Made by a program: the position numbers and the translations under genes
Assembly: GCF_003605195.1 (NCBI RefSeq)
Contig: NZ_QYOS01000020.1
Coordinates: 62,001 to 126,000, forward strand
DNA length: 64,000 nucleotides
Direction of reading: 5' to 3'
Source: Aurantiacibacter odishensis
GTDB taxonomy: Bacteria > Pseudomonadota > Alphaproteobacteria > Sphingomonadales > Sphingomonadaceae
Shown here: piece after piece, positions 11,937-27,497 of the stretch
How positions within the stretch are numbered: position 1 is the first letter of the stretch
Layout: each line of letters starts with the position of its first letter
The notes under the pieces: model-generated
Told to the model about the DNA's origin: nothing
The model's input: the letters and a program-made list of their open reading frames with translations, nothing else
Databases searched by the model: none

Positions 11937-14120
11937 TTAGTCGAGTGCGGTCAGGAAAAGGGGTTTGGATCGGGCGTGGGAGCCGACTTGCAACACCCAC
12001 AATGGCTTGCCGGGATGTTCTCCATGGAGCGCGGCAAGATCCGCAGCACCGATAGCCAGCCAAGGTTCTGAGGTTTCCCAGGTCACCACCGGCGCGTCGG
12101 GATTACCCAGACCCACTTCGTAGCGCTCGGCCTGCTCGTTCAGCGGCACGTCCACCGTGCCACTCCAGCCCCAGCTGCCACGCGAACGGCGGGTCCAGCG
12201 CAGCACAAGGCTGCCATCGCTATCGCGGACGGCGCGGCCGTGCACGGGCGTGAGTGGCTCGCGGCTTCGCCCTGCAGCCATGATCGGCGCGACCACGGCT
12301 TCGTTATCGGCAAGGCCGATCGCAGCAATCACACGACTGTCAGAGACTTCGCTCGGCTGCAATGCAATCGGCTTGCGGTCGAGCAGGATGAAACCCGCCC
12401 CGGCAGGCGTGCCACCAGCGGCGACGTGTTCCGTACCCCCGCGACCGCGAAGGAGTCCTGAGAGAAGCCATTGGCCTCCGCCTAGGTCCTCCGCATGACA
12501 GAACTGGATGATTTCCTCTCCGACCACCGCGCGGTTTGCGCCGCTCGCAAGGTCGTCCGGCGTGGCCGTTGGCAGGACGAGGTCCGTTGCGTCCAACAGA
12601 ACGTCCAGAGTCGCCTGCCGATCGATGAACAGGGCGCTGCCGGGCGCAAGGGCGGAGGACGTGGTACCGGTTATGCTGCGCCGCGTGCCAGTGCCGCCGA
12701 TAGGCACGAGGCTGCCGCCACGCTCGGCGTAGAGCGTAGCGCCGGTCCACCCGGACGTTGCCGAGCTGGGTGCGGCGAAGACCTGCCGCTGGTCCATGCT
12801 GCCTTCACCGTCCCAGGGCAATTCGACTGCGCGCAAGGTCGTGGGGCTTGCGACCGCGTCCTTGGGACTGGCGGGCGTGCCGGGGTCGGTCGGCGTCTCG
12901 GCGCCGCGCAGATAGGGCAGGCGGAGCAGTTCAAGCTCCAGCCCGTTCTCGCGCCATTCCCACGCCTCGATCCGCCACTTGCCGGACTTGCCCGGCACGG
13001 TGACGATCTGACCGGGGCCGATTGCCGGATCGAGCTGGGCCACGCGGTAGGCCATGCGCTCCTGCGACCAGCCAGCGCGTTCGGCGGCGTCGTCTGCCAG
13101 TTTGCGAGCTTTCGTCGCCGCAAGTGCTCCGGGAAATTCCACGATGCGGCTGCGACCGGCCTGTGCCCGCCCGCCCGCCCGTTGCAGACCTGCCTGGTAA
13201 TCGCGGTCGACGTCGTAATAACGCAGGCCGCCGGGCAACTGGACCGCGTCTGCCCGCCGCTGGCTGGCGCGTCCGGACACGGCACCGAAACTCTCGCGCG
13301 ACAGGTCCACCGCAGCTTCGGGCAACCGGGCGACGGGTTCGCCCGCCGGATGACCGTCGAAGAACGTCAGCCGCGTCCCGCTGGCATCGCAGGCGAGGGG
13401 ATAGACCCGGTCGACCGAATCGAGCACCGCCTGAAGCGGGCCGCCGGAGTCGGAATAGCCTTGCAGGCCTGGCAGCACGCGGTCCGCAGAGCCCGTCGCG
13501 ATGGCGGGCGAAACTATGGATTGCAGGCTCACCGCGCCATCGTCAGCCACGATCTCGAAGGTAAGAGCGGGAATGCGGTTGCCGAAGTCGCCCAATTGCA
13601 GGTCTTCGAACACGCAATAGGCCAAGCCCCGGAAGGCAGGGCAGGCCGCGCCCTTGTCGGCCGCGATCAGCGGGTCGGGCTGCTGGTCGCCGTGGCCGGA
13701 ATGGACGCGGAACGTGCCGCCCACCTTCAGGTCGCCCGCGCTTCCGCGCAGCAGGTTTCCGTCCGCCCAGATGCGCCGGACAGTGGCAACCGGGCGGCTC
13801 GCCAGAGCGACCGCGAACGAGGTGGAATAGCTGTAGGTGGTGACAGAGGGCTGACCTTTGCCGCCGCCTGCTTCCTCGCTGCTTTCGACGAGGTCGGTAG
13901 CCCAGATGATCGTTCCGGCAGCGCGCATGGTGCCGAAATGGCGCGGCACGGGTGTGCCGTAGCTGGAGGTGGTGACGCTGAGTTCCTGCAGGCGTGGGCC
14001 TTCGCGGTCTGCGGGGCCGAACAGCGCGCCGTCGATCTGGCTGCCGAGCAGCGAGCCCAGCGCACCGCCTAGCGGTCCGCCGATGGCCGTGCCGACGGCA
14101 GTCAATACGAGAGTAGCCAT
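11937..14120 (-). CDS. GTA gp15-like baseplate / host-specificity protein
   Basis: 727 residues. The N-terminus MATLVLTAVGTAIGGPLGGALGSLLGS and the segment GPADREGPRLQELSVTTSSYGTPVP match the start of GTA gp15 (phage-tail_3 type). The middle has the tail-protein signatures QLPGGLRYYDVDRDYQAG and MAYRVAQLDPAIGPGQIVTVPG. The gp15 of Rhodobacter capsulatus GTA is much longer (about 1,300 residues) and carries a TIM-barrel region that I do not see here. Likely part of the baseplate that contacts the recipient cell. Confidence 0.9.
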   Translation of the reverse strand: MATLVLTAVGTAIGGPLGGALGSLLGSQIDGALFGPADREGPRLQELSVTTSSYGTPVPRHFGTMRAAGTIIWATDLVESSEEAGGGKGQPSVTTYSYSTSFAVALASRPVATVRRIWADGNLLRGSAGDLKVGGTFRVHSGHGDQQPDPLIAADKGAACPAFRGLAYCVFEDLQLGDFGNRIPALTFEIVADDGAVSLQSIVSPAIATGSADRVLPGLQGYSDSGGPLQAVLDSVDRVYPLACDASGTRLTFFDGHPAGEPVARLPEAAVDLSRESFGAVSGRASQRRADAVQLPGGLRYYDVDRDYQAGLQRAGGRAQAGRSRIVEFPGALAATKARKLADDAAERAGWSQERMAYRVAQLDPAIGPGQIVTVPGKSGKWRIEAWEWRENGLELELLRLPYLRGAETPTDPGTPASPKDAVASPTTLRAVELPWDGEGSMDQRQVFAAPSSATSGWTGATLYAERGGSLVPIGGTGTRRSITGTTSSALAPGSALFIDRQATLDVLLDATDLVLPTATPDDLASGANRAVVGEEIIQFCHAEDLGGGQWLLSGLLRGRGGTEHVAAGGTPAGAGFILLDRKPIALQPSEVSDSRVIAAIGLADNEAVVAPIMAAGRSREPLTPVHGRAVRDSDGSLVLRWTRRSRGSWGWSGTVDVPLNEQAERYEVGLGNPDAPVVTWETSEPWLAIGAADLAALHGEHPGKPLWVLQVGSHARSKPLFLTALD

Positions 14121-14538: not shown

Positions 14539-15353
14539 GAGGAACTCGTGGGATAGCGCGTGAGCAAGTCATTGCCGGGCAGGAACGGCTCCCCTTGGAA
14601 ATTGGCGGCGTTGCCGAAGCGATTGGCGCAGGTCTCGATGGTGTGATCGCAACCCTCGCGCAGGTAGGCGCGGTGGCCCGCTGCCAGGTCGGTTGCGATG
14701 GATTGGTCAAGCACCAGCAAGCCGCCCAGCACATCCACGACATGCATCGTGATCCCGGAATGCGGGCCGTCAATCCAGCGCACTTGCCCGTGGCGGTAGG
14801 CTTCGGCGGAAGGTCCGCCAAAGCCCACGGCGTTTCTATCTGCATCGATCAGCGAGGCATGGCCGATCCGCGTGAAGCGCGCGGGGTTCAGGCGGCACGC
14901 GGCATCGCAGAAGGCGGCACGGCACGTGGGGCTGGTGCGAGGAACGAAGTCTTCCTCCAGCGCCGCCTTGGCGGAGCGCAATTCGGCGGTGAAACCCTGA
15001 TCCTCCGCAGAGATGTTCCCCAGCGTGCCGTGAAAAAGGCTTGCGCGAGACAGGCTGGTCCAGTCGACAAGGCCGATGGCCACGCGTGCATCGGCGTAGC
15101 GCCCGCTTTCGAGGTCCGCCGCCGAAATGGTATCGTGCGCAAGGATTCCCTGCACTTCCACGCTGTCCCGCTCCAGCTTCGCGGTGCGGCGGATGGCGGA
15201 GGGCAACATGCCGGGCGCTGCAAGATGGGTAACGCCGTCGAACGTGAGCGGGCGATTGTGGCTGGTGAACGCCAGCGTCACCCCGTCCCGGCGCTCGATA
15301 CGCCACCACGTGGCAACGCCTTCCAGCTCGTTGCCGAAGAACACGGGCGTCAT
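14535..15353 (-). CDS. GTA gp13-like hub protein (DUF2163)
   Basis: 272 residues of the DUF2163 family. Five cysteines occur in the C-terminal half: Cys144, 149 and 153 (TCRAAFCDAACRLNP) and Cys235 and 242 (EGCDHTIETCANRFGN), followed by the family motif FLPGNDLLTRYP. In the R. capsulatus particle the hub protein binds an iron-sulfur cluster, and these cysteines fit that. It joins tail tube and baseplate. Starts and stops overlap both neighbours (ATGA). Confidence 0.93.
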   Translation of the reverse strand: MTPVFFGNELEGVATWWRIERRDGVTLAFTSHNRPLTFDGVTHLAAPGMLPSAIRRTAKLERDSVEVQGILAHDTISAADLESGRYADARVAIGLVDWTSLSRASLFHGTLGNISAEDQGFTAELRSAKAALEEDFVPRTSPTCRAAFCDAACRLNPARFTRIGHASLIDADRNAVGFGGPSAEAYRHGQVRWIDGPHSGITMHVVDVLGGLLVLDQSIATDLAAGHRAYLREGCDHTIETCANRFGNAANFQGEPFLPGNDLLTRYPTSSS

Positions 15354-17665
15354 ACGTCCTCGCGCACTTCGACAAGCGGCACCGAGGGGGCCTCACCTGC
15401 GGCAAAGGTAGAGCAGGAGATGTCGAGCCGGTCCTGTGCAAACCGTACGGGCACGTCGAACAGGAACCCTGCGCGCACTTCGGTTCCTTCGGGCGGGGCA
15501 TCGCTCAGCACGACGCGACCACCGGCGCCCAGCGTCCAGTCTGTTGTCTCCACGCCGCCTACGCTGACCCGAATCGTTTCCGCGCGGGGGCGAGTGATCT
15601 GGCGGACCTGTGGATCGTTGCCCGCACCGTAGGACTTCGACAGCCGGAAGGTTGCGGCAAGACCGTCGCCGGTGCCGATCAGCTGGTCTGTGGGCGTGGG
15701 GCTGCCGGTAAGGCCGTTGGAGCTGAAATCGAACGGGTCCGCCAGCCTGAACCCGCGGGCGGGGCCGCGGCGGGCACGGAAGAATTCCAGCAGCACGCCC
15801 AGCTCGGCCTCGGACCTGAGGCCGGGACCGACATCGTAATGCATCCGCGCGTCGCTCCACTGACTGTTGCGCCGTTCGAAACCCGACGCGGTGAGCGAGA
15901 TGGAGGTGGAGAATTCGGGGCTGGCGGCGGTATCGCGCCCCAGCGCCAGCGGGTAGAGCACATCGTCGAAAGCTTGCAATTCGTCCTCCTGGGATTGGGT
16001 CAGGCGCACGTATCCGTCGCGCAGGACCTGGGGCATGGCCCATACGAACTGGCGCGGAACGCCGCGTTCGATGGCTTCGTCCACGCCGTCGTCGATCAGC
16101 TGCCAGAATGCGTCCGCGTCGGCCGGGTCGAGCACGAAGCCGGATAGGTAATCCTGCACGGCCAGCGGGTAGCCGAGCCGTTGCTGCACTTCAGCGTAGG
16201 CCCTCAGGCGCCGGGCTTCGGCTCCCGTGGTCAGCCAGTCGTAATCCTCGAGCTGAAGCCGTTCGTAGGCGGGATAGGCCCAGTCTGTCGGCATGTTCGC
16301 GCGCCGCAATTCCGGCCATTTCGGGTCGAGCACGGTAGGTGTGAATAGCAGCAGATAGACCTGCGCCGCCTCTCCCGCCGTCGCCTTAACCGTGTCGCGG
16401 ATCGCCTTGGTGGCATTGGCAAGGCGCTTTCCGGCCCAGTCGAGGTGGTTGAGCTGCGCTTGGTCCAGCGTCGCGGTGAGGTCCGGAATGTCAGGCGCAT
16501 CGGGCACAAGCCGCCGGGCGTCCTCGTCATAGATGCACAGCTTGCCTTCGGGCGTGATCCACCACCACGGTTCGCCGATCTGGAAATGCACCGGCAGTCC
16601 TGCGTCCATCACCTGCCGGACAAGCGCCGTCGCGACCTTGTGAAGGAAGAACATGCCTTTCGAAAGCGGGGTGATAAGCGTGGAGGGCGGGTCCCACCCC
16701 GTCAGCGCCAATTCGCCGTCGTAGGTGCGCTGGCCCCATTCGGGCGGGCAATGCTCGGCAAACAGTTCAAACGAAAGCGAGACGACCGGCTCGAAACCGA
16801 ATTCCACGCAGCGGGCGAAGAAATCCTCGTGCCAGGCGATGAACGGCTGGCACAGCACTCCCGTCGGTTCTGCCTGCAACTTTCCCTGCTTTCGCGTGAG
16901 CCTGTAGTAATGGCTCATGCCGACGTAGTGGACCAGCGCATCGCGGTAGCCCAGTTGCATGATGCCGCGCATCATCCGGGCAGGCGTGAGGTTGTAGCTG
17001 TCGTCGTAGGCGGTGCACATATGCAGGCCGTGCGGCGGCACGATCACGTCGCCGATGGTCAGCATGGCGCGGTCGCCGTCGCAGTTGATCTCGGTCAGCT
17101 CCACCCATCCGTTGCTGCGGGCGAAGAGCAGTCCCGCGGCGTCGGGATCGTAGGTCGGGGCCACCAGAGAGATGAACATGCGGTCTATGTCGCCGGGCGC
17201 CACCGCGTCGCCGTCTGCCAACCATCCTTCGCGCAGGGCCGAGAACGGCAGGTTCACGCTCGCATCCTGCGGCGTTCCCTCGGCGTAGTTCCACAGCCGC
17301 ACATACCAGCTACGCGCGGTTCCCGAAGCATCGCGGCCTTCGATAGTCAGCGTTGGCCCGTGCACCGCATCCAGTGGCAGAACGCCGTCGGAACGCCAGC
17401 GGAAGCTGAGCGTGGTGCGCGAATAGTCGCGGTCGGTATCGTAGGAGAGCAGCGGGTGGTCGAACCGGTCCTCGCTCTCCCAGATCAGCCCGACCAGCCC
17501 GCCCGCAAGCTGCAGTTCGAGATCGACCCGCAGCGAATCGGGGCCGGTGGAGACCACGCTGGCCATGTCGCCGCGCGGGAAATCCACGGTCCAGAAGCGC
17601 GGGTCGAAGCGCTGGATGAAATCGGTGTCCTGCCCATTGCGTTCACGGGCGAGCCAATAGGCCAT
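15350..17665 (-). CDS. GTA gp12 (DUF2460) with long N-terminal TIM-barrel-like extension
   Basis: 771 residues. The C-terminal ~200 (from EFSTSISLTASGFERRNSQW through FFRARRGPARGFRLADPFDF) is the DUF2460 distal-tail domain, which on its own is the whole of gp12 in R. capsulatus GTA. About 555 residues are added in front: a beta-rich start (ERNGQDTDFIQRFDPRFWTV) and a region resembling a glycosidase-like TIM barrel (VHYVGMSHYYRLTR, VSLSFELFAEHCPPEWG, FQIGEPWWWITPEGKLCIYD). Database entries call such N-terminal regions non-contractile tail sheath domains; I recall this and cannot check it. Expected in the distal tail or tail decoration. Confidence 0.88.
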   Translation of the reverse strand: MAYWLARERNGQDTDFIQRFDPRFWTVDFPRGDMASVVSTGPDSLRVDLELQLAGGLVGLIWESEDRFDHPLLSYDTDRDYSRTTLSFRWRSDGVLPLDAVHGPTLTIEGRDASGTARSWYVRLWNYAEGTPQDASVNLPFSALREGWLADGDAVAPGDIDRMFISLVAPTYDPDAAGLLFARSNGWVELTEINCDGDRAMLTIGDVIVPPHGLHMCTAYDDSYNLTPARMMRGIMQLGYRDALVHYVGMSHYYRLTRKQGKLQAEPTGVLCQPFIAWHEDFFARCVEFGFEPVVSLSFELFAEHCPPEWGQRTYDGELALTGWDPPSTLITPLSKGMFFLHKVATALVRQVMDAGLPVHFQIGEPWWWITPEGKLCIYDEDARRLVPDAPDIPDLTATLDQAQLNHLDWAGKRLANATKAIRDTVKATAGEAAQVYLLLFTPTVLDPKWPELRRANMPTDWAYPAYERLQLEDYDWLTTGAEARRLRAYAEVQQRLGYPLAVQDYLSGFVLDPADADAFWQLIDDGVDEAIERGVPRQFVWAMPQVLRDGYVRLTQSQEDELQAFDDVLYPLALGRDTAASPEFSTSISLTASGFERRNSQWSDARMHYDVGPGLRSEAELGVLLEFFRARRGPARGFRLADPFDFSSNGLTGSPTPTDQLIGTGDGLAATFRLSKSYGAGNDPQVRQITRPRAETIRVSVGGVETTDWTLGAGGRVVLSDAPPEGTEVRAGFLFDVPVRFAQDRLDISCSTFAAGEAPSVPLVEVREDV

Positions 17666-20715: not shown

Positions 20716-21870
20716 TTACGCTTCGATTTTCAGCAGCTTGATCGCCGAGCTGTCGAGCACCTGGCCGCCCACGCGCTTCGTGGCGTAGAAGTGCACGAAG
20801 GGCTTGTTGGTGAACGGATCGCGCAGGATCTGCGTGGCGCTGCGTTCGGCGATGATGTAGCCGGCCTTGAAGTTGCCGAAGGCGATCGGGAAAGCGCCGC
20901 CTGCCACGTCCGGCATGTCTTCCGCTTCGATCACCGGGTAGCCCAGCAGGCGATCCGGCTGGCCTTCCACCAGGCCCGGCTGCCACAGGAATGCACCGTC
21001 GCTGGTCTTCAGCTTGCGCACTTCGGAAAGCGTGGCCGAGTTCATCACCCAGCTTGCACCTTGGCGATGCCCCGCCTTCATTGTGTGCACGAGGTCGATC
21101 AGGCGGCCCTCGGGATTGGCGTCGAAGCCGTCCGCATCGCCCGAACCGATGTACTGCACCGAGCCGAACGGACGCACGGCATCACCCGCCATCGAGGTCG
21201 GCGAGGCGAGGAAGCCGCGCGGCTGGTCCACGCCAGAGCCATTGACGAAAGCAGCACCTTCGGCGCGGGCGAATTCCATCGCCACTTCGCTGGCGAGCCA
21301 GCCTTCGAGGTCGAACGCGGCATCGTCCAGCATGGACTGGCTGGCGGCCGGGTTGGCGTAGAGCTCACCCGTCGGCGGCGCAATTTCGGCGAAGTTCGGG
21401 GCATCGGTTTCCGGGCGCGGGGCGCTCTCGCCGACCCAGCCCGACGCGGTGCCGCCGGTGGTGACGAGCTTGCGATAGCCCGCAGAGCCGACTTGCACCA
21501 CCTGCGCGATCTGGCGGATGGGGGAGATTTCCTTCAATTCGCTCGCGATCATCGCATCGATCTCGCGCGGGACGGCATAGCCGCCATCGGCGGGGCTGGA
21601 GCCGGACATCGACTTCAGTTCTGTCTCACGGCCACGGCGCAGGTAGCCATCGACGAAGCCTTTGACTTCGGCGCTCGGTTCGGTGGCACCAGCATTGCCG
21701 ATAGCCGGACGCGCGGCGGCCTTGCCGATCCTGTCGATCCGGGCTTTCACCTCGTCGACGTCCGAACGCAGCACCTTGATCGCTTCGTCGGCCTTGTCCT
21801 GGCGGGCGACGATGTCGAAGCTGTCGTTGAGCGTGTCGGTATTCAGAGGGGTTTCGATCTGGATATCCAT
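20716..21870 (-). CDS. GTA gp5-like major capsid protein (HK97 fold)
   Basis: 384 residues from the ATG at 21870 with a GAAAGGAAA ribosome site. The N-terminal ~95 residues form a helical delta-like region (LRSDVDEVKARIDRIGK); then SMSGSSPADGGYAVPREIDA and GWVGESAPRPETDAPNF, typical of HK97-type GTA capsids. Cleavage by the adjacent protease is expected near residue 100, after the linker. The gene is followed by the hairpin-rich gap, which may insulate capsid mRNA. Confidence 0.95.
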   Translation of the reverse strand: MDIQIETPLNTDTLNDSFDIVARQDKADEAIKVLRSDVDEVKARIDRIGKAAARPAIGNAGATEPSAEVKGFVDGYLRRGRETELKSMSGSSPADGGYAVPREIDAMIASELKEISPIRQIAQVVQVGSAGYRKLVTTGGTASGWVGESAPRPETDAPNFAEIAPPTGELYANPAASQSMLDDAAFDLEGWLASEVAMEFARAEGAAFVNGSGVDQPRGFLASPTSMAGDAVRPFGSVQYIGSGDADGFDANPEGRLIDLVHTMKAGHRQGASWVMNSATLSEVRKLKTSDGAFLWQPGLVEGQPDRLLGYPVIEAEDMPDVAGGAFPIAFGNFKAGYIIAERSATQILRDPFTNKPFVHFYATKRVGGQVLDSSAIKLLKIEA

Positions 21871-21988
21871 GTATTTCCTTTCGGTGGGGGAGAGTAATCT
21901 TCGGGCGCGAAGCGACCGCAAGCGCGAACGCGCGTCGGCCGGTCAGGCCGGAAGCCAAGGCTGCGGACGCAGCCGCCGGCGCTTGAGG

Positions 21989-22381
21989 CTAAACAAACAG
22001 GTGGACTCGCGCATTCGGTTGCAGGGGGTGGGTGACGAGGCTGACTTCGAACAGGTCGATATCCTCCAGCACGCGCCCGGCTGGCCCGCGGCGGTATCCG
22101 CGGGCGCGGTAACCGAAGCTAAGGCCGTTGGTGCGGCGCGAGAGGAGTTCCTGGCTGGCGCGGCTGTCAGGGTTGTCTATGCGGGCGATCACCCTCAGGC
22201 CGCGCGCGTCTTCCTGCGCCAGTTCGACGGTTCCGATCGGCTGGTCCGGGTTGTGCTGCCAGTAGAGCGGGAGCGGTTCCTTCCGCTCCGCCAGCGTGCG
22301 GGCGAAAGCGCCTTTCACGATCACGTCCTTCGCGCTGTCGGCAATGTCGAATAGGGCGGCGTAACCCGCGATACGGGTCAA
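21989..22381 (-). CDS. GTA gp4-like HK97 prohead protease
   Basis: 130 residues from a TTG start that overlaps the gp3.5 stop (TTGA). The protease signature is intact: His43 in LYWQHNPDQPIGTV and Ser88 in RRTNGLSFGYRARG. It should mature the capsid protein encoded next. No ATG or GTG occurs near the conserved start (TRIAGYAALFDIADSAKD); the frame runs open to 22726 inside the portal and gp3.5 genes, which is coincidental. Confidence 0.9.
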   Translation of the reverse strand: MTRIAGYAALFDIADSAKDVIVKGAFARTLAERKEPLPLYWQHNPDQPIGTVELAQEDARGLRVIARIDNPDSRASQELLSRRTNGLSFGYRARGYRRGPAGRVLEDIDLFEVSLVTHPLQPNARVHLFV

Positions 22382-22686
22382 CGCAGCAGCTCCGGCACGC
22401 CGATGCGCACGGCGATGCCGATCAGCAGCAGCGCCATCAGGCCGCGCACGCACCATTCTATCACCGCCTTGGATGCGCTGGCCTTCGCCGCGCGCCAGGC
22501 GCTCAGCAATTCGCGCAGTTCGTCGAGATCGTCGTGCGCGCCCTCGTCGTCGAGGCCCAGCTTGTCGAGCACGCGTTCCGCGCCCAGTTCGCTCGATTCC
22601 TCCACGATGGCGCGCAGCGTCACCAGGTCCGCGCCGGTATCGATCGCCTGGGCCACCAGCCCGGCGAGCATGTCTTGTCGGTTCAT
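22378..22686 (-). CDS. GTA gp3.5-like small protein (DUF6127 type)
   Basis: 102 residues. The first ~65 are acidic and helical (LVTLRAIVEESSELGAERVLDKLGLDDEGAHDDLDELRELLSAW). The end has a hydrophobic segment (VRGLMALLLIGIAVRIGV) that could span the membrane. It occupies the gp3.5 position between portal and protease and overlaps both (ATGA with the portal stop, TTGA with the protease start). I recall the DUF6127 family at this position in GTAs. Function unknown. Confidence 0.8.
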   Translation of the reverse strand: MNRQDMLAGLVAQAIDTGADLVTLRAIVEESSELGAERVLDKLGLDDEGAHDDLDELRELLSAWRAAKASASKAVIEWCVRGLMALLLIGIAVRIGVPELLR

Positions 22687-23858
22687 GTGTTGTCTCCAGC
22701 AGGCGCCGAAGCCGGGGCAAGACCAAGCATCGCGCGCTTCTCGTCAGCGGTAAGGAAGTCGGCCCCGCTCACCTGCGACCACAGCTTCTCGCGGTCCTCC
22801 GCCAGCGCGGGCACTCGGTCGAGATCGACCGACAGCGCGAGGTCCGGAAACCACGGCGAGAGGCCCTGCGAGAGGCCGTCGAGGATCTTGGCCGCCAACG
22901 GCAGCAGGGTGAGCCGCCACAGCGCGCGGTTGGCCTCGCGGTAATTGGAATAGGTGTTGTCGCCCGGCAGACCGAGCAGCATGGGCGGCACACCGAAAGC
23001 GAGCGCAATGTCGCGCGCAGCCGCCGCTTTCAGTTCGGCAAAGTCCATGTCGGCGGGCGAGAGGGACAGGCTCTGCCACTTGAGGCCCCCTTCCAGCAGC
23101 ATCGGACGGCCCGCGTTGCCGCCGCCCTGGTAGGCGCTGGAAAGCTCTGCCTTCAGCCGGTCGAACTGGTCGGCCGTGAGGCCAGCGGTGTCGCTGCCGT
23201 TGTCATAGACCAGTGCGCCACTGGGCCGCGCCGCGTTCTCCAGCAGCGCGAGGTTCCAGCGCGCGGCCTCGTTGTGGATCGCCACGGCCTGTTCGGCAGC
23301 AGAAAGGCAGCCCGCGCCGTAGTGATCGTCCGCCGGGTGGAAAGCCTTGAGGTGGATGAGGCAGGGCCAGCCGTCCTCGTCCTCCACCGGAATGTCGCGG
23401 GTCATGTCGCCCACGCGGTAGCGGTAGCCGACGGGCCAGCCATTCTCGCCCTGCACGACCGAGACCCGCTCGGGCCGCAATGCGAACAGCGAGGCGGGGC
23501 GATTGCCCACGCCTTTTCCGATCTGCACGAAGGCATTGCCGTGCAACAGCAGGTGCGCGGCAAGCGTTTCCATCAGCGATCCGCCATCCTGCGCGGCGCG
23601 CAGCATCACGGCGATCTCCGGAGCAGTGTGGGACAGGGGCGCATTGCCTACCCCCTCCGCCACGATCCGCACCGCCCGCTGGGCGACCGGATTGTCGAGA
23701 AACGCGTGGCGCACGGCGGAGCGATATTCGAACGGCTGGCGAGCACCGCCGCGCTCGTGCGTCCACCCCCAGGCGGAATGAAACCCGCGCCCGATAGGCA
23801 CGGCTGTAGCTCCGCCACCGCCCTTGAAGGCGGCGCGGAGGCTGTCGAAGAATGACAT
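22683..23858 (-). CDS. GTA gp3-like portal protein
   Basis: 391 residues of the HK97-type portal family: MSFFDSLRAAFKGG, YRSAVRHAFLDNPVAQRAVRIVAEGVGNAPL, HGNAFVQIGKGVGNRPASLFALRPERV, and IALAFGVPPMLLGLPGDNTYSNYREANRALW are all typical. It forms the dodecameric DNA entry ring and docks the terminase. It follows the terminase gene by 22 bases. Confidence 0.95.
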   Translation of the reverse strand: MSFFDSLRAAFKGGGGATAVPIGRGFHSAWGWTHERGGARQPFEYRSAVRHAFLDNPVAQRAVRIVAEGVGNAPLSHTAPEIAVMLRAAQDGGSLMETLAAHLLLHGNAFVQIGKGVGNRPASLFALRPERVSVVQGENGWPVGYRYRVGDMTRDIPVEDEDGWPCLIHLKAFHPADDHYGAGCLSAAEQAVAIHNEAARWNLALLENAARPSGALVYDNGSDTAGLTADQFDRLKAELSSAYQGGGNAGRPMLLEGGLKWQSLSLSPADMDFAELKAAAARDIALAFGVPPMLLGLPGDNTYSNYREANRALWRLTLLPLAAKILDGLSQGLSPWFPDLALSVDLDRVPALAEDREKLWSQVSGADFLTADEKRAMLGLAPASAPAGDNT

Positions 23859-23880: not shown

Positions 23881-25212
23881 CTAGAGTTGTCGGACAGCAG
23901 GCTCGCCCCGCTTGCCCAGCATCAGTTCCGTCATTGCCCACACCAGCGCATCGGCCCTGTCAGGCGAGCGCCCCGGTCCTTCGTAGCCGCCGCCGGCCAT
24001 CACGCCGCACAGTTCGTCTTCCAGGGGCGGGAAGGTGCCCACGTGGTTCACGCGGCCTGCTTCGTAGAGCGCGGCGACGGGTTCGGCGCGCGCGCTTTTG
24101 CCGGTCCTGGCGTGGACCAGTTTCAGCGGCATTTGGCAGTCGGCGGCGCGCAGCACGCTTTCCACCATCGCGCCACCCTGGTTGGCCTCGGCCACCACGC
24201 GGTCGGCTTTCCAGGCAATCGCGGCGGCGGCCACGGCGCGTGCCCAGCGTTCGGGGCTGGGGCGCTCCACGCTGGCATCGGCCAGCACCTTGGCCTGCCC
24301 GCTCTCTGTGACAGCGCAGACCACGATCCCGCAGGCATCGCCGCGCGCGCTGGCGGGCGGGTCCACGCCGATCACGGTGCGTACGCGCTGCTCCAGGCAC
24401 AAGGTCTCGCGGCACTGCTCCAGCATGGAGCGGGACCACAGCGCGCCCTCGACATCGGCCAGCAATTCGCCGTCCAGCTCCTGCCGACCCAGCGCGCTGC
24501 CACCGTATTGCCCGCGAATGGTCTGGATAAAGCCCGTGGGGAGGTGGTCAACATTGTCGTAAGTGCTGCCCCGCGTCACCACCACGCCGGGGTCCCGCTC
24601 CTGCTCGATCAGGCGGCGCATGATCGGCACCGCGCGCGGGGTGGTGGTGGCGAGGACTTGCGGGTTTTCACCCAGGCGCAGGCCCATTTGCAGGTTGTCC
24701 CACGTCTTCATCGCGCGCTCCGAAGAATTATCCCATTTGGCAATTTCATCACACCAGGCATAACCATGTTGCGGGCCGCGCAGGCTTTCCGGCTCGCTGG
24801 CGGAATAGAGTGTTGCCTGCGCGCCATTGGGCCAGGTCAGCCGCCGTAGAGAGGGTTCGAATTCCGGCCCGTCCGGGTAGAGGTGGCAGGCAAGGATGCC
24901 GCTCTCGCCTTCCACCATCACGGCGCGCGCTTCCGCGATGGAACGGGTGACGAGGGCGATGCGGGCATCGGGGTTGTCCTCCGCCACGTGGCGCACCCAT
25001 TCGGCCCCGGCGCGGGTCTTCCCAAAGCCGCGCCCGGCACAGATCAGCCACAGCCGCCAGTCCTGTGCAGGCGGCATCTGTTCGCGGCGCGCCCAAAGCG
25101 GCCAGTGGTATTCCAGCAGGTCGCGCTCTGCCGCGTTGAGTTCATCGAGGAAATCGTAGCGTTCCGGGTCCTCCGCCTTGGCGAGCGCCTTGCCGCGCTC
25201 AATCTCTTCCAT
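23881..25212 (-). CDS. GTA gp2-like large terminase (TerL)
   Basis: 443 residues. ATPase Walker A AGRGFGKT (residues 59-66), Walker B-like YAWCDEIAKW, coupling region LATTTPRAVPIMRRL, and a C-terminal RNase H-like nuclease domain starting VIGVDPPASARGDACGIVV. It powers headful packaging of host DNA into GTA heads. The start overlaps the small-terminase gene by 14 bases. Confidence 0.95.
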   Translation of the reverse strand: MEEIERGKALAKAEDPERYDFLDELNAAERDLLEYHWPLWARREQMPPAQDWRLWLICAGRGFGKTRAGAEWVRHVAEDNPDARIALVTRSIAEARAVMVEGESGILACHLYPDGPEFEPSLRRLTWPNGAQATLYSASEPESLRGPQHGYAWCDEIAKWDNSSERAMKTWDNLQMGLRLGENPQVLATTTPRAVPIMRRLIEQERDPGVVVTRGSTYDNVDHLPTGFIQTIRGQYGGSALGRQELDGELLADVEGALWSRSMLEQCRETLCLEQRVRTVIGVDPPASARGDACGIVVCAVTESGQAKVLADASVERPSPERWARAVAAAAIAWKADRVVAEANQGGAMVESVLRAADCQMPLKLVHARTGKSARAEPVAALYEAGRVNHVGTFPPLEDELCGVMAGGGYEGPGRSPDRADALVWAMTELMLGKRGEPAVRQL

Positions 25213-25690
25213 TGGCCCCGACTTCGCTAACGCCCTTTACGACGCCATCCTCCTTCAGCAGCTTCTCCGCCGCGGCGCGGCGCTCGCGCATCCGGTCCAG
25301 CTTGGCATTCAGGCCGGCGAGGACGGTGGCCTTGTCGCGGCTGCCCTGCCGGGCCTTTTCCTTGGCCGCTGCCTCGCGGTGCGCGGCCAGCAGGCGCAGG
25401 GCATTGGCAATGTCGAATTTCGTTTCGCCCGGCGGCGTTCCGAAGCGAAGCCGCTGCAGCGTTTCCATTTCCAGGTGCTCGTATCCTTCCAGCAGGGCCG
25501 CGCTCCACTGGGCGCGGAATTCGGGGTTTTCCCGTCGCCACTTGTAGACGTACGACGTCATGGCTCCGGCCTTCTCGGCGGCCTTGGTGACGTTCGAGGT
25601 TTCGGCCAGCTCTTCCAGAAAGACGTGCTTCCAGTTCTGTTTCAGGTTCTGGCCCCGCTGTTCCTTGCGCGGTTTTACGCGTTTCGACAT
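25199..25690 (-). CDS. GTA gp1-like small terminase
   Basis: 163 residues from the ATG at 25690. It has a helix-turn-helix-like N-terminal part (VFLEELAETSNVTKAAEKAGAMTSYVYKWRRENPEFRAQW) and a helical, basic C-terminal half, as in phage small terminases and GTA gp1. It is the first gene of the operon. The frame is open upstream to 25855 but that stretch holds the leader terminator and promoter, so it is not coding. Confidence 0.85.
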   Translation of the reverse strand: MSKRVKPRKEQRGQNLKQNWKHVFLEELAETSNVTKAAEKAGAMTSYVYKWRRENPEFRAQWSAALLEGYEHLEMETLQRLRFGTPPGETKFDIANALRLLAAHREAAAKEKARQGSRDKATVLAGLNAKLDRMRERRAAAEKLLKEDGVVKGVSEVGANGRD

Positions 25691-25740
25691 GTGATCCCGC
25701 CCTTGTCCTGAGCGATTGCCGAGCGCGCCGTGCGGGCACG

Positions 25741-25773
25741 AAAAAGGGCGGCTCCCGTAACGGGACCGCCCTT
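25741..25773 (-). terminator. Intrinsic terminator in the GTA operon leader
   Basis: On the minus strand: AAGGGCGG..CCGCCCTT stem with inner CCCGT/ACGGG pairing, followed by five T (25745-25741 read as A on plus). No T-run follows on the plus strand, so it works only toward the GTA genes. It lies about 50 bases upstream of the gp1 ATG and about 50 bases downstream of the predicted start of transcription. Confidence 0.85.
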
Positions 25774-25826
25774 GAAGCGCCTCCTCGATGGGGCGGCGCC
25801 GACTCGGTTTATCGCGATGTTCCGTT

Positions 25827-25855
25827 TCTCTAACCAAACAGTGTGACGATGTCAA
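25827..25855 (-). promoter_or_regulatory. Candidate promoter of the GTA operon
   Basis: Minus strand TTGACA (25855-25850), 17-base spacer, TAGAGA (25832-25827). The -35 is a perfect consensus. Predicted start near 25820, giving a leader of about 130 bases that contains the terminator at 25773-25741. GGTTAG on the plus strand at 25873-25878 and its complement CTAACC at 25830-25835 flank the -35. Confidence 0.6.
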
Positions 25856-25953
25856 CGTGAAAGTGCCATATGGGTTAGTTTGTTGGACTCGCCCTCACAC
25901 TTGCGGGGCCGGTGAACCTGCCGTAGATGCCGCAAAACCTTCAGGGACTTTCC

Positions 25954-26598
25954 ATGCTTCGCGGACTTTACAACTGGACGATGGCCAAGGCCGCGCATCC
26001 CCATGCGCAGTGGTGGCTGGCGTTCTTCTCGTTCATCGAATCGAGTTTCTTCCCCATCCCGCCGCACCCGCTGCTGGGTCTGATGTGCCTGGCGGAGCCG
26101 AAGCGGGCGATCCGCTTTGCCCTGATCTGCACGCTGGCATCGGTGCTGGGCGGCCTGTTTGGGTACCTCATCGGTTATTTCCTCTACGAAGCCGTGGGCG
26201 AATGGCTGATCGGAATGCTGGGCCTGACGGACAGCTTCCCCAAGGCCGCCTGCTACATCCGCGAACAGGGCGCGGCAGCGGTGTTCCTTGCCGCGGGTAC
26301 GCCGATCCCATTCAAGCTGATGACCATCACCGCCGGGTTCATCGAGATGAACCTCGTGACCTTCATCCTCGCCGCGATCGCGGGCCGGGCGCTGATCTTC
26401 ATGGTGGTGGGCGTGCTGTTCCAGTTCTTCGGCGCGCCGATCAAGGCGATCATCGACAAGTACCTGGGCACCGTCACCACGATCTTCGTTGTCCTGGTGG
26501 TGGCCGGTTTCATCGCCATCACCCAGCTTGGCGGCCACGAGGGCGAGGCCGACGCGAGCGACCCTTGCGCCAACGTCACTTCGATGGAGCAGCTTTAA
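25954..26598 (+). CDS. YqaA / DedA-family membrane protein
   Basis: 214 residues from the ATG at 25954, matching the usual MLR.LYNWT start of YqaA proteins; an in-frame ATG at 25927 is possible. Four to five membrane helices and the SNARE-associated/VTT motifs are present: FIESSFFPIPPHPLLGLMCL, VLGGLFGYLIGYFL and AAGTPIPFKLMTITAGFIEM. DedA relatives act in lipid scrambling or transport and membrane homeostasis. It is divergent from the GTA operon and precedes the ars genes by 59 bases. Confidence 0.9.
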   Translation: MLRGLYNWTMAKAAHPHAQWWLAFFSFIESSFFPIPPHPLLGLMCLAEPKRAIRFALICTLASVLGGLFGYLIGYFLYEAVGEWLIGMLGLTDSFPKAACYIREQGAAAVFLAAGTPIPFKLMTITAGFIEMNLVTFILAAIAGRALIFMVVGVLFQFFGAPIKAIIDKYLGTVTTIFVVLVVAGFIAITQLGGHEGEADASDPCANVTSMEQL

Positions 26599-26614
26599 TT
26601 CGACAGTTGTCGAA
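26599..26614. promoter_or_regulatory. ArsR operator candidate 1
   Basis: Palindrome TTCGACAGTTGTCGAA: seven-base arms TTCGACA / TGTCGAA around GT, starting at the stop codon of the YqaA gene and 43 bases before the arsR ATG. Confidence 0.65.
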
Positions 26615-26640
26615 ATAACGCTTGCGCTGGCGGGCGGATA

Positions 26641-26658
26641 TTTCGATAAGTGTCGAAA
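26641..26658. promoter_or_regulatory. ArsR operator candidate 2
   Basis: TTTCGATAAGTGTCGAAA, a second copy of the same operator with one mismatch between arms. Its last base is the A of the arsR ATG. Spacing between the two sites is about four helical turns. Confidence 0.6.
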
Positions 26659-26987
26659 TGAAGCAGCAAGACGTTATCGCCGCGCTCGGAGCGCTCGCGC
26701 AGGATTCGCGGCTGGAGGTGTTCCGCCTGCTCGTTCGCACCGGCAAGGAAGGGCTGGCCGCAGGCGATATCGCGCAGCGGCTGGGCATCCCTGCATCCTC
26801 GCTATCGTTCCACCTGTCGCAGTTGCACGAGGCCGGGCTAGTGTCCCAGCGGCGAGAGGGCCGCTCGCTGATCTACAGCGCCGACTATGCCAGCATGAAC
26901 GCGCTGATGGCCTTCCTCACCGAGAACTGCTGCGAGGGGGAGGGTTGCGAAGCGACTGCCGCCCCGCGTACTGCCGGAGCCTGCTGA
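26658..26987 (+). CDS. arsR: ArsR-family arsenic-responsive repressor
   Basis: 109 residues from the ATG at 26658. Winged helix with recognition region GDIAQRLGIPASSLSFHLSQLHEAGLVSQRREGRSLIY. The likely As(III) ligands are C-terminal cysteines (ENCCEGEGC and GAC), an arrangement unlike the E. coli alpha-3 site. Two palindromic operators lie just upstream, so it probably autoregulates arsR-arsC-acr3. The arsC start is three bases after its stop. Confidence 0.93.
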   Translation: MKQQDVIAALGALAQDSRLEVFRLLVRTGKEGLAAGDIAQRLGIPASSLSFHLSQLHEAGLVSQRREGRSLIYSADYASMNALMAFLTENCCEGEGCEATAAPRTAGAC

Positions 26988-26990
26988 GCC

Positions 26991-27497
26991 ATGCGCAACG
27001 TGCTGTTCCTGTGCACCGCCAACTCGGCCCGCTCGATCCTTGCCGAGGCGATCCTTCGCGATGCCGCGCCGGGCCGCTTCGCCGCATTCTCCGCCGGCAG
27101 CACGCCGCGCGGTGTGCCCAATCCGCTGGCGCTTGAACTGCTGGCGGCGAAGGGGCACGCGGTGGACGGCCTTTCCTCCAAGAGCTGGGACGTCTTCGCG
27201 GGAGAGGGCGGGCCGACCATCCACGCCGTCATCACAGTGTGCGACAATGCCAAGGGTGAAAGTTGTCCGATATGGCCCGGCCATCCGGTGCAGGCCCACT
27301 GGGGCATTCCCGATCCCGCGAGCGTGGCAGCCGACGGCACCCACATCGATGGGGAACTGGCGGGCTTCGAAACCGCCTACGCGCGCCTTAGCCAGCGGAT
27401 CGAGGCGATGCTGGCGCTGGACGATGATTCGATGACAGCGCGCGAATGGCGCGATGCGCTCATTGCCATTGGCAAACAAAGCGAGGGAGCAAGCTGA
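26991..27497 (+). CDS. arsC: Arsenate reductase, low-molecular-weight phosphatase type
   Basis: 168 residues. The nucleophile loop LCTANSARS close to the N-terminus is a CX5R P-loop, and the C-terminal IPDPA motif supplies the acid Asp. The second cysteine region [15 protein letters not shown] matches thioredoxin-linked ArsC. It reduces arsenate to arsenite for export by the next gene, whose start overlaps its stop (TGATG). Confidence 0.93.

Follow-up and report, generated by a model that had tools for sequence, protein, structure and literature searches.

In the window analyzed here, a 64,000-nucleotide stretch of the Aurantiacibacter odishensis genome, seven minus-strand genes form an RcGTA-like set that encodes, in order, terminase, portal, protease, capsid, NCTSP, and Rcc01698-type tail proteins (Table 1). 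TerS, the product of the first of these genes, is matched weakly (Pfam Sf6_terminase, E = 1.2e−4, below the cut-off, with the query cut to 154 aa). The gene order agrees with the first-pass annotation of this DNA, in which the leader had been attributed to a GTA operon.

Table 1 Features of the GTA operon and its upstream region in the window
Feature	Position	Strand	Basis and remarks
Rcc01698-like tail protein	11937..14120	−	PF23666, PF13550
NCTSP/DUF2460 tail protein	15350..17665	−	PF23845, PF23844, PF09343
GTA major capsid protein	20716..21921	−	PF05065
GTA prohead protease	21989..22726	−	PF04586; listed start TTG; overlaps portal gene
GTA portal protein	22683..23858	−	PF04860
GTA large terminase	23881..25212	−	PF03237, PF17289
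Small terminase-like TerS (gp1), first GTA gene, 163 aa	25199..25690 (ATG at 25690)	−	Pfam, weak
Intrinsic terminator, hairpin of −22.6 kcal/mol plus T5	25741..25773	−	Sequence, conservation, covariation
GAGTC, CcrM-type GANTC site	25801..25805	−	About +17 to +21
Predicted start (~25821/25820) and conserved initially transcribed element AACATCGCGATAAACCGAGTCG	25800..25821	−	84% identity
−10 element TAGAGA	25827..25832	−	79% identity; TACATA in many relatives
17-nt spacer TCGTCACACTGTTTGGT, candidate anti-terminator (GafZ) element	25833..25849	−	82% mean identity; role by analogy with PMC11150451 (excerpts)
−35 element TTGACA	25850..25855	−	Matches consensus 6/6
Operator-like TAACCCATATGGCAC (AACC-N5-GG; right half degenerate)	25863..25877	−	Center at about −50 from predicted start
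Divergent VTT-domain gene bounding the intergenic region	25927..26598	+	PF09335

Upstream of the TerS gene, a sequence check places the promoter TTGACA-17-TAGAGA at 25855-25827 on the minus strand, where the first-pass annotation had it. Its description there as consensus-like is right for the −35 element and wrong for the −10 element, which agrees with TATAAT at 3 of 6 bases. The transcription start is predicted from the position of the −10 element, and the pattern running from the operator to the −35 element has a single occurrence in the genome.

Between this start and TerS lies the hairpin AAGGGCGGTCCCGTTACGGGAGCCGCCCTT (25773-25744, minus strand) with its T-run (25745-25741), the same in coordinates and sequence as the five-T terminator previously noted ahead of the first GTA gene. 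RNA ending here is predicted to be ~81 nt long and to stop before any gene. The terminator had also been called strong, and it is the best minus-strand hairpin-plus-T site within 8.0-25.95 kb (the runner-up has −17.6 kcal/mol); under the hairpin-plus-T filters, seven sites over the 64 kb pass −18 kcal/mol, both strands counted. Taken whole, the 138-nt leader has no unusual stability (34 of 200 shuffles match or exceed it; z = −0.86), and the case for a terminator is therefore made by the hairpin, the T-run, and their conservation. A built-in promoter and terminator scan listed neither the TTGACA-TAGAGA promoter nor the leader terminator, presumably because it demands a T at the end of the −10 element and an unbulged stem. 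No Rfam family exceeded its gathering score in 25000-27000; a full-length match to suhB at 25731-25800 on the minus strand (16.4 bits, E = 3, gathering score 41) was taken as chance.

Conservation of the promoter in relatives

Loci were sampled in two ways: a TerL scan of genome contigs gave 80 named loci (the best 80 of 291 relatives), and a TerS family search, with a match in 152 of 199 genomes, contributed 30 loci, the source locus included. The pooled set with the source leader locus comprises 111 loci, or 103 distinct ones once 8 copies are removed; TerS was matched in all 111 and TerL in all 103. Alignment around the promoter was obtained for 88 of the 103 loci; the others were lost to insertions, short contigs, or variants that broke the pattern, or had too little flanking sequence.

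We found the promoter block in 102 of the 103 distinct loci, a count that is partly circular because the profile was built from 80 of those loci. Six of the 102 match in the downstream half only, owing to insertions, and the sole miss (L029) has just 88 bases preceding its TerS. Across the 88 aligned leaders, column identity is 84% in the first 23 transcribed bases, 82% in the spacer, and 76% in the upstream operator, against a background of 40%. The −35 element has a mean of 99.7%, which mostly reflects the alignment anchor TTG(A/G)C, and its sixth base is A in 99% of leaders. The distance from TTGAC to AACATCG is constant in 88 of 88 aligned leaders, and also in 92 under a looser flank rule. 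In 337 genomes of the class, a 29-base promoter pattern with at most 3 mismatches matched 4 of 5 family members and 0 of 332 genomes of other families. Judged by its sequence, the block serves an RcGTA-like operon as its late-type promoter and leader, and the promoter is family-wide, unlike the clade-limited terminator. Because promoter spacers vary as a rule, the conservation of this one suggests that something probably reads it.

IS1595-family transposons lie exactly in the −10 and start region of the GTA promoter in six loci (L002, L010, L024, L048, L055, and L107) and are present whole in L154-L158. The two transposases that were checked are DDE_Tnp_IS1595; the elements are ~2.9-3.9 kb long, differ in their passenger genes, and have 8-bp target duplications in 4 of 4 insertions read at both ends. 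A terminal-repeat match was found in 34 of 397 family genomes: 11 at the GTA promoter (10 placed by flank, 1 by TerS distance), 20 elsewhere, and 3 left out of the placement. We regard the GTA promoter as a striking, not exclusive, insertion hotspot, and an insertion should cut the operon off from its promoter. By eye, the insertions of L048, L002, L107, and L055 contain T(T/G)TCCTACAGCG ~50-200 bp before their right end, a sequence that resembles the gafZ promoter box described below; in two of them (L048 and L002) it is also like the GTA spacer, and the insertion of L048 further holds a TAACC-N5-GGTTA operator and CGAGTCGG. The inserted element may have acquired a copy of the GTA control logic.

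The leader terminator in relatives

A strict hairpin-plus-T terminator is present in 27 of the 102 leaders, the source leader included, where 10 dinucleotide shuffles of each leader predict 1.4. Twelve of the 102 pass on the reverse strand, which we put down to A-runs before some of the hairpins. A hairpin with a poor T-run, chosen by eye, occurs in 11 of the 102, and 64 have no hairpin terminator under the set rules, with the same promoter present. Within the first ~1.1 kb from the TerS start, 10 of these 64 carry a second terGTA-like terminator, mostly ~500-900 nt downstream of the start of the TerS match.

Conservation of the stem-loop in relatives had been named in the first-pass annotation as a check on its reading, and the stem-loop is kept within a clade. 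The terminator is present in all 13 loci of the nearest TerL clade, which has a support of 81 (96 for its inner clade of ten), and in all 10 loci with TerL identity of ≥70%, the source locus counted in both. Because it is missing from 26 of 26 named Novosphingobium, we consider it a clade feature. Mapped onto a 96-row TerL tree, the terminator label requires 12 changes versus 22.3 after shuffling (0 of 500 as low), a kind of clustering that near-copies among the rows favor.

In 23 of the 27 strict hairpins, neither the 14 double-changed cells nor the covariation score of the stem was equaled in any of 500 shuffles, and double changes fall in 4 of 9 stem pairs (40 of 500 shuffles as high), with the caveat that related rows can beat shuffles without structure. 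Among the 13 near relatives alone, the leader is nearly invariant, and a double change is seen in 1 of 16 predicted pairs. The linker from the start region to the hairpin varies from 0 to ~27 nt and cannot be aligned; both flanking ends are conserved. Twenty-three of the 27 terminated leaders have no ATG, and some ATG, GTG, or TTG occurs in 16 of 27; the leader of the source genome has no such codon at all. Given such a short, variable linker and the scarcity of ATG, there is little room for an RNA switch or a leader peptide. The predicted terminated RNAs are short and similar in length across relatives (~55-83 nt).

A GANTC site in the start region

The conserved start region holds a CcrM-type site (Table 1), and CGAGTCG at 25806-25800 (minus strand) matches the GcrA motif YGAKTCK. 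GANTC was counted in 99 of the 103 leaders (L020, L029, L067, and L068 were left out): it falls within the first 40 transcribed bases in 90 of them and at one fixed place in 84, with 77 of the 99 matching YGAKTCK there. The N position over the 90 leaders is G in 47, T in 36, A in 6, and C in 1, and the background per kb is 1.0 GANTC within TerS and 2.4 far upstream. Six of the nine leaders that lack the site share one tree group with Citromicrobium. The first-pass annotation had seen the promoter, the stem, and the T-run of the leader and had missed both this site and the operator. Over the window (1-64000), GANTC is rarer than expected under a first-order model (81 vs 268), and CTNAG likewise (53 vs 166); the under-representation of GANTC fits a CcrM host.

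YGAKTCK is the extended GcrA motif quoted in excerpts of PMC7987155, in which GcrA sites downstream of promoters are also reported as activating. Because the same excerpts give no preference past a slight C around the GcrA site in Brevundimonas, the extension is not a strict rule. The predicted site resembles the GcrA/CcrM promoters of PMC7987155 and PMC3667746 in having YGAKTCK within the promoter region; the targets named in the excerpts of these papers include no GTA operon. GANTC was surveyed along chromosomes and GTA regions in PMC9836097, the excerpts of which do not mention a site at the GTA promoter.

A putative operator at the gafZ and GTA promoters

In 89 of 102 leaders, ACC-N5-GG sits 19-21 nt before the −35 TTGAC; the right half of the operator is a perfect GGTT in 34 of the 102 and GGCA in 47. 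The source genome has one match to gafZ (DUF6456, E = 6.8e−39), the homologue for which the first-pass annotation had proposed a search, and matches are present in 176 of 199 family genomes, the source included. In the excerpts of PMC9765227, gafA is listed as a DUF6456 protein, and GafA homologues are annotated DUF6456. The gene divergent from gafZ in the source genome encodes an XRE-type helix-turn-helix protein of 190 aa, whose C-terminal half is, by eye, S24-like and without catalytic residues; phmmer searches of PDB with the XRE and GafZ queries gave weak helix-turn-helix or chance matches only.

The gafZ region was compared in 50 loci, consisting of the source, the 30 best-scoring family loci, and 19 picked for kinship; one stretch (L172, with guessed coordinates and no gafZ) had been removed from an original 51. 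All 50 loci encode a relative of the XRE protein divergently from gafZ, and a perfect AACC-N5-GGTT lies between the two genes in 37 of 50, compared with an expectation of ~0.6% per locus from base count. The box T(T/G)TCC(T/A)ACA is present in all 50 gafZ promoters (L112:1314-1413 and 49 relatives) and is followed by TTTGGCAAG-like sequence; the exact pattern occurs once in the source genome. In 40 of the 50 loci, the operator stands 20-22 nt before the CC(T/A)ACA of this box. Given that operator geometry is similar at the gafZ and GTA promoters, a common regulator is suggested, with one protein acting on both. The TTAACC-like half sites also raised the possibility of a CtrA-type box; the XRE reading is preferred because the element is an inverted AACC-N5-GGTT repeat common to the gafZ-XRE region. 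In some family members (G007, G017, G040, and G094), gafZ is found on the TerS strand at most ~1 kb ahead of that gene, which puts it within the GTA operon or next to it.

The excerpts of PMC9632790 record that gafY often adjoins gafZ (494 of 759 GafZ homologues) and that Caulobacter RogA, which is S24-like and has a helix-turn-helix, represses gafYZ; according to those of PMC11150451, GafY contacts RpoD. The predicted role of the XRE regulator may be modeled on either the repressor RogA or GafY.

Comparison with known GTA regulation

In the excerpted literature, direct GTA regulators have been worked out in Caulobacter and Rhodobacter. The Caulobacter crescentus GTA is controlled by GafY, GafZ, and IHF, and GafZ bypasses terminators there and also E. 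coli rrnB T1 (PMC11150451, excerpts); the first-pass annotation had cited GafYZ anti-termination as part of the switch for this cluster. The locus described here resembles it in combining an RcGTA-like operon with a gafZ-family (DUF6456) gene, in having a terminator between the promoter and most structural genes, early in the operon, and in having a conserved or functional element between −35 and −10 together with an untranslated leader. The likeness in mechanism is partial, because the terminator tested in Caulobacter, made of three 150-bp repeats, follows gene 1, whereas the hairpin and T-run here precede it, and because the Caulobacter −35 is a degenerate AATCAT, in contrast to TTGACA here (PMC11150451, excerpts). 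The spacer here is conserved but unlike the Caulobacter GafZ element GCGCCCG-CTGGCGC, a palindrome between −35 and −10 (same excerpts). Also unlike Caulobacter, gafZ here is beside an XRE gene, with an operator common to the gafZ and GTA promoters, and the start region holds a GANTC site. One Pfam search (PF08299) found no DnaA-type GafY; its single match in the genome, a 490-aa frame, is presumably DnaA, and a diverged GafY could be missed. RcGTA of Rhodobacter capsulatus is of the same operon family (PMC6363796 and PMC9638019, excerpts). Rhodobacter GafA is a single protein whose N-terminal domain is DnaA-like, whereas gafZ here is separate, beside the divergent XRE gene.

The late promoter PR′ of phage lambda has a spacer element, an early intrinsic terminator (tR′) that gives a short RNA, and the protein Q. 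The present leader is like it in its spacer element and in an early intrinsic terminator yielding a short RNA, and unlike it in its shorter distances and the extra methylation site. A comparison with control of this promoter by Q is drawn in the excerpts of PMC11150451 as well. As far as excerpts of the open-licence PMC literature extend, no GTA-leader terminator, promoter of this kind, GANTC site, or XRE operator is described in this family.

Models for control of the operon

Because GTA production kills the producer cell (PMC9632790 and PMC11150451, excerpts), how GTA stays off is a central question. Given a promoter with a stop signal immediately after it, particle production probably needs a polymerase that is helped past the stop. 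An anti-termination gate at the leader terminator, which the first-pass annotation had raised, is plausible, and we rate its chances as about even. A real, clade-conserved terminator, a gafZ homologue, and a conserved spacer favor it; the spacer, the −35 element, and the placement of the terminator, all unlike those of Caulobacter, count against it, as do the many leaders that have this promoter and no terminator, and the right half of the operator, which is imperfect here and in most leaders. Under such a gate, transcripts from ~25821/25820 would end at 25741 in nonproducing cells; where particles are produced, GafZ would load at the conserved spacer and travel with RNA polymerase through the stop, like Q proteins at phage late promoters. 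The XRE regulator divergent from gafZ would bind AACC-N5-GGTT at the gafZ and GTA promoters, replacing GafY or RogA, and GcrA at the CcrM-methylated GANTC would add a methylation (replication-state) input.

Several alternatives do without a modified polymerase. The main rival casts the terminator as constitutive: it would lower basal expression, and induction through control of initiation (XRE, GcrA, or GafZ as an activator) would swamp it. The patchiness of the terminator under a family-wide promoter fits this explanation, as do two observations in the excerpts of PMC11150451. A near-consensus −35 in Caulobacter was active without GafYZ at a level about sixfold lower, so TTGACA here could leak, and GafZ passed terGTA partly, with an approximately eightfold loss remaining. 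Since GafZ is an anti-terminator in Caulobacter, acting also at E. coli rrnB T1 (same excerpts), and a homologue is present here, we judge this rival unlikely, if worth serious weight. A strong T-run on the GTA strand could alternatively insulate the operon from stray upstream transcription. The upstream VTT-domain gene is divergent, however, and hence no gene reads in; the hairpin, lying downstream of the GTA promoter, would stop GTA transcripts too, and it stays just past the conserved start region despite the variable linker. We rejected insulation as quite improbable.

The remaining alternatives assign the function to the leader RNA. A regulatory small RNA would agree with the short and similar terminated lengths and with the very weak suhB match (25731-25800; 16.4 bits, E = 3), but that match does not rise above chance, the linker cannot be aligned, and 64 of 102 leaders carry the promoter without a hairpin terminator; as the main role of the leader, it was rejected as very improbable. 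In the source genome, CCGCCC near 25795 could pair, by eye, with the 5′ arm of the terminator, a point in favor of an RNA switch or attenuator. Some relatives (e.g., L005, L011, and L012) have practically no linker, the general lack of ATG in terminated leaders argues against a leader-peptide attenuator, and the Rfam search of 25000-27000 gave no family above its gathering score. We rejected a switch or attenuator as scarcely credible. Because the linker leaves so little room and 23 of 27 terminated leaders lack an ATG, the decision, if any, would be made by a modified polymerase, as the anti-termination gate has it.

The absence of the terminator from 64 of 102 leaders and from 26 of 26 Novosphingobium implies that the promoter can work without the stop. 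In Novosphingobium, with a promoter and no stop, GafZ should therefore have another job, either as an activator or against downstream terminators. Tentatively, we propose that the Sphingomonadaceae GTA operon may be under three stacked locks over ~140 bases: an XRE operator shared with gafZ, a CcrM-methylated GcrA site within the first 21 transcribed bases, and, in the clade of the Aurantiacibacter type, a leader terminator passed only by GafZ-modified polymerase. We consider this combination possible but rather doubtful.

The promoter block is a marker with which GTA promoters can be found across the family. It adds a third lineage, with cis-regulatory elements conserved strongly enough for each to be mutated and tested, and through it one can ask directly whether gene transfer is licensed by DNA methylation. 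If the proposal of three locks is true, the GcrA site would tie suicidal particle production to the methylation, and hence replication, state of the chromosome.
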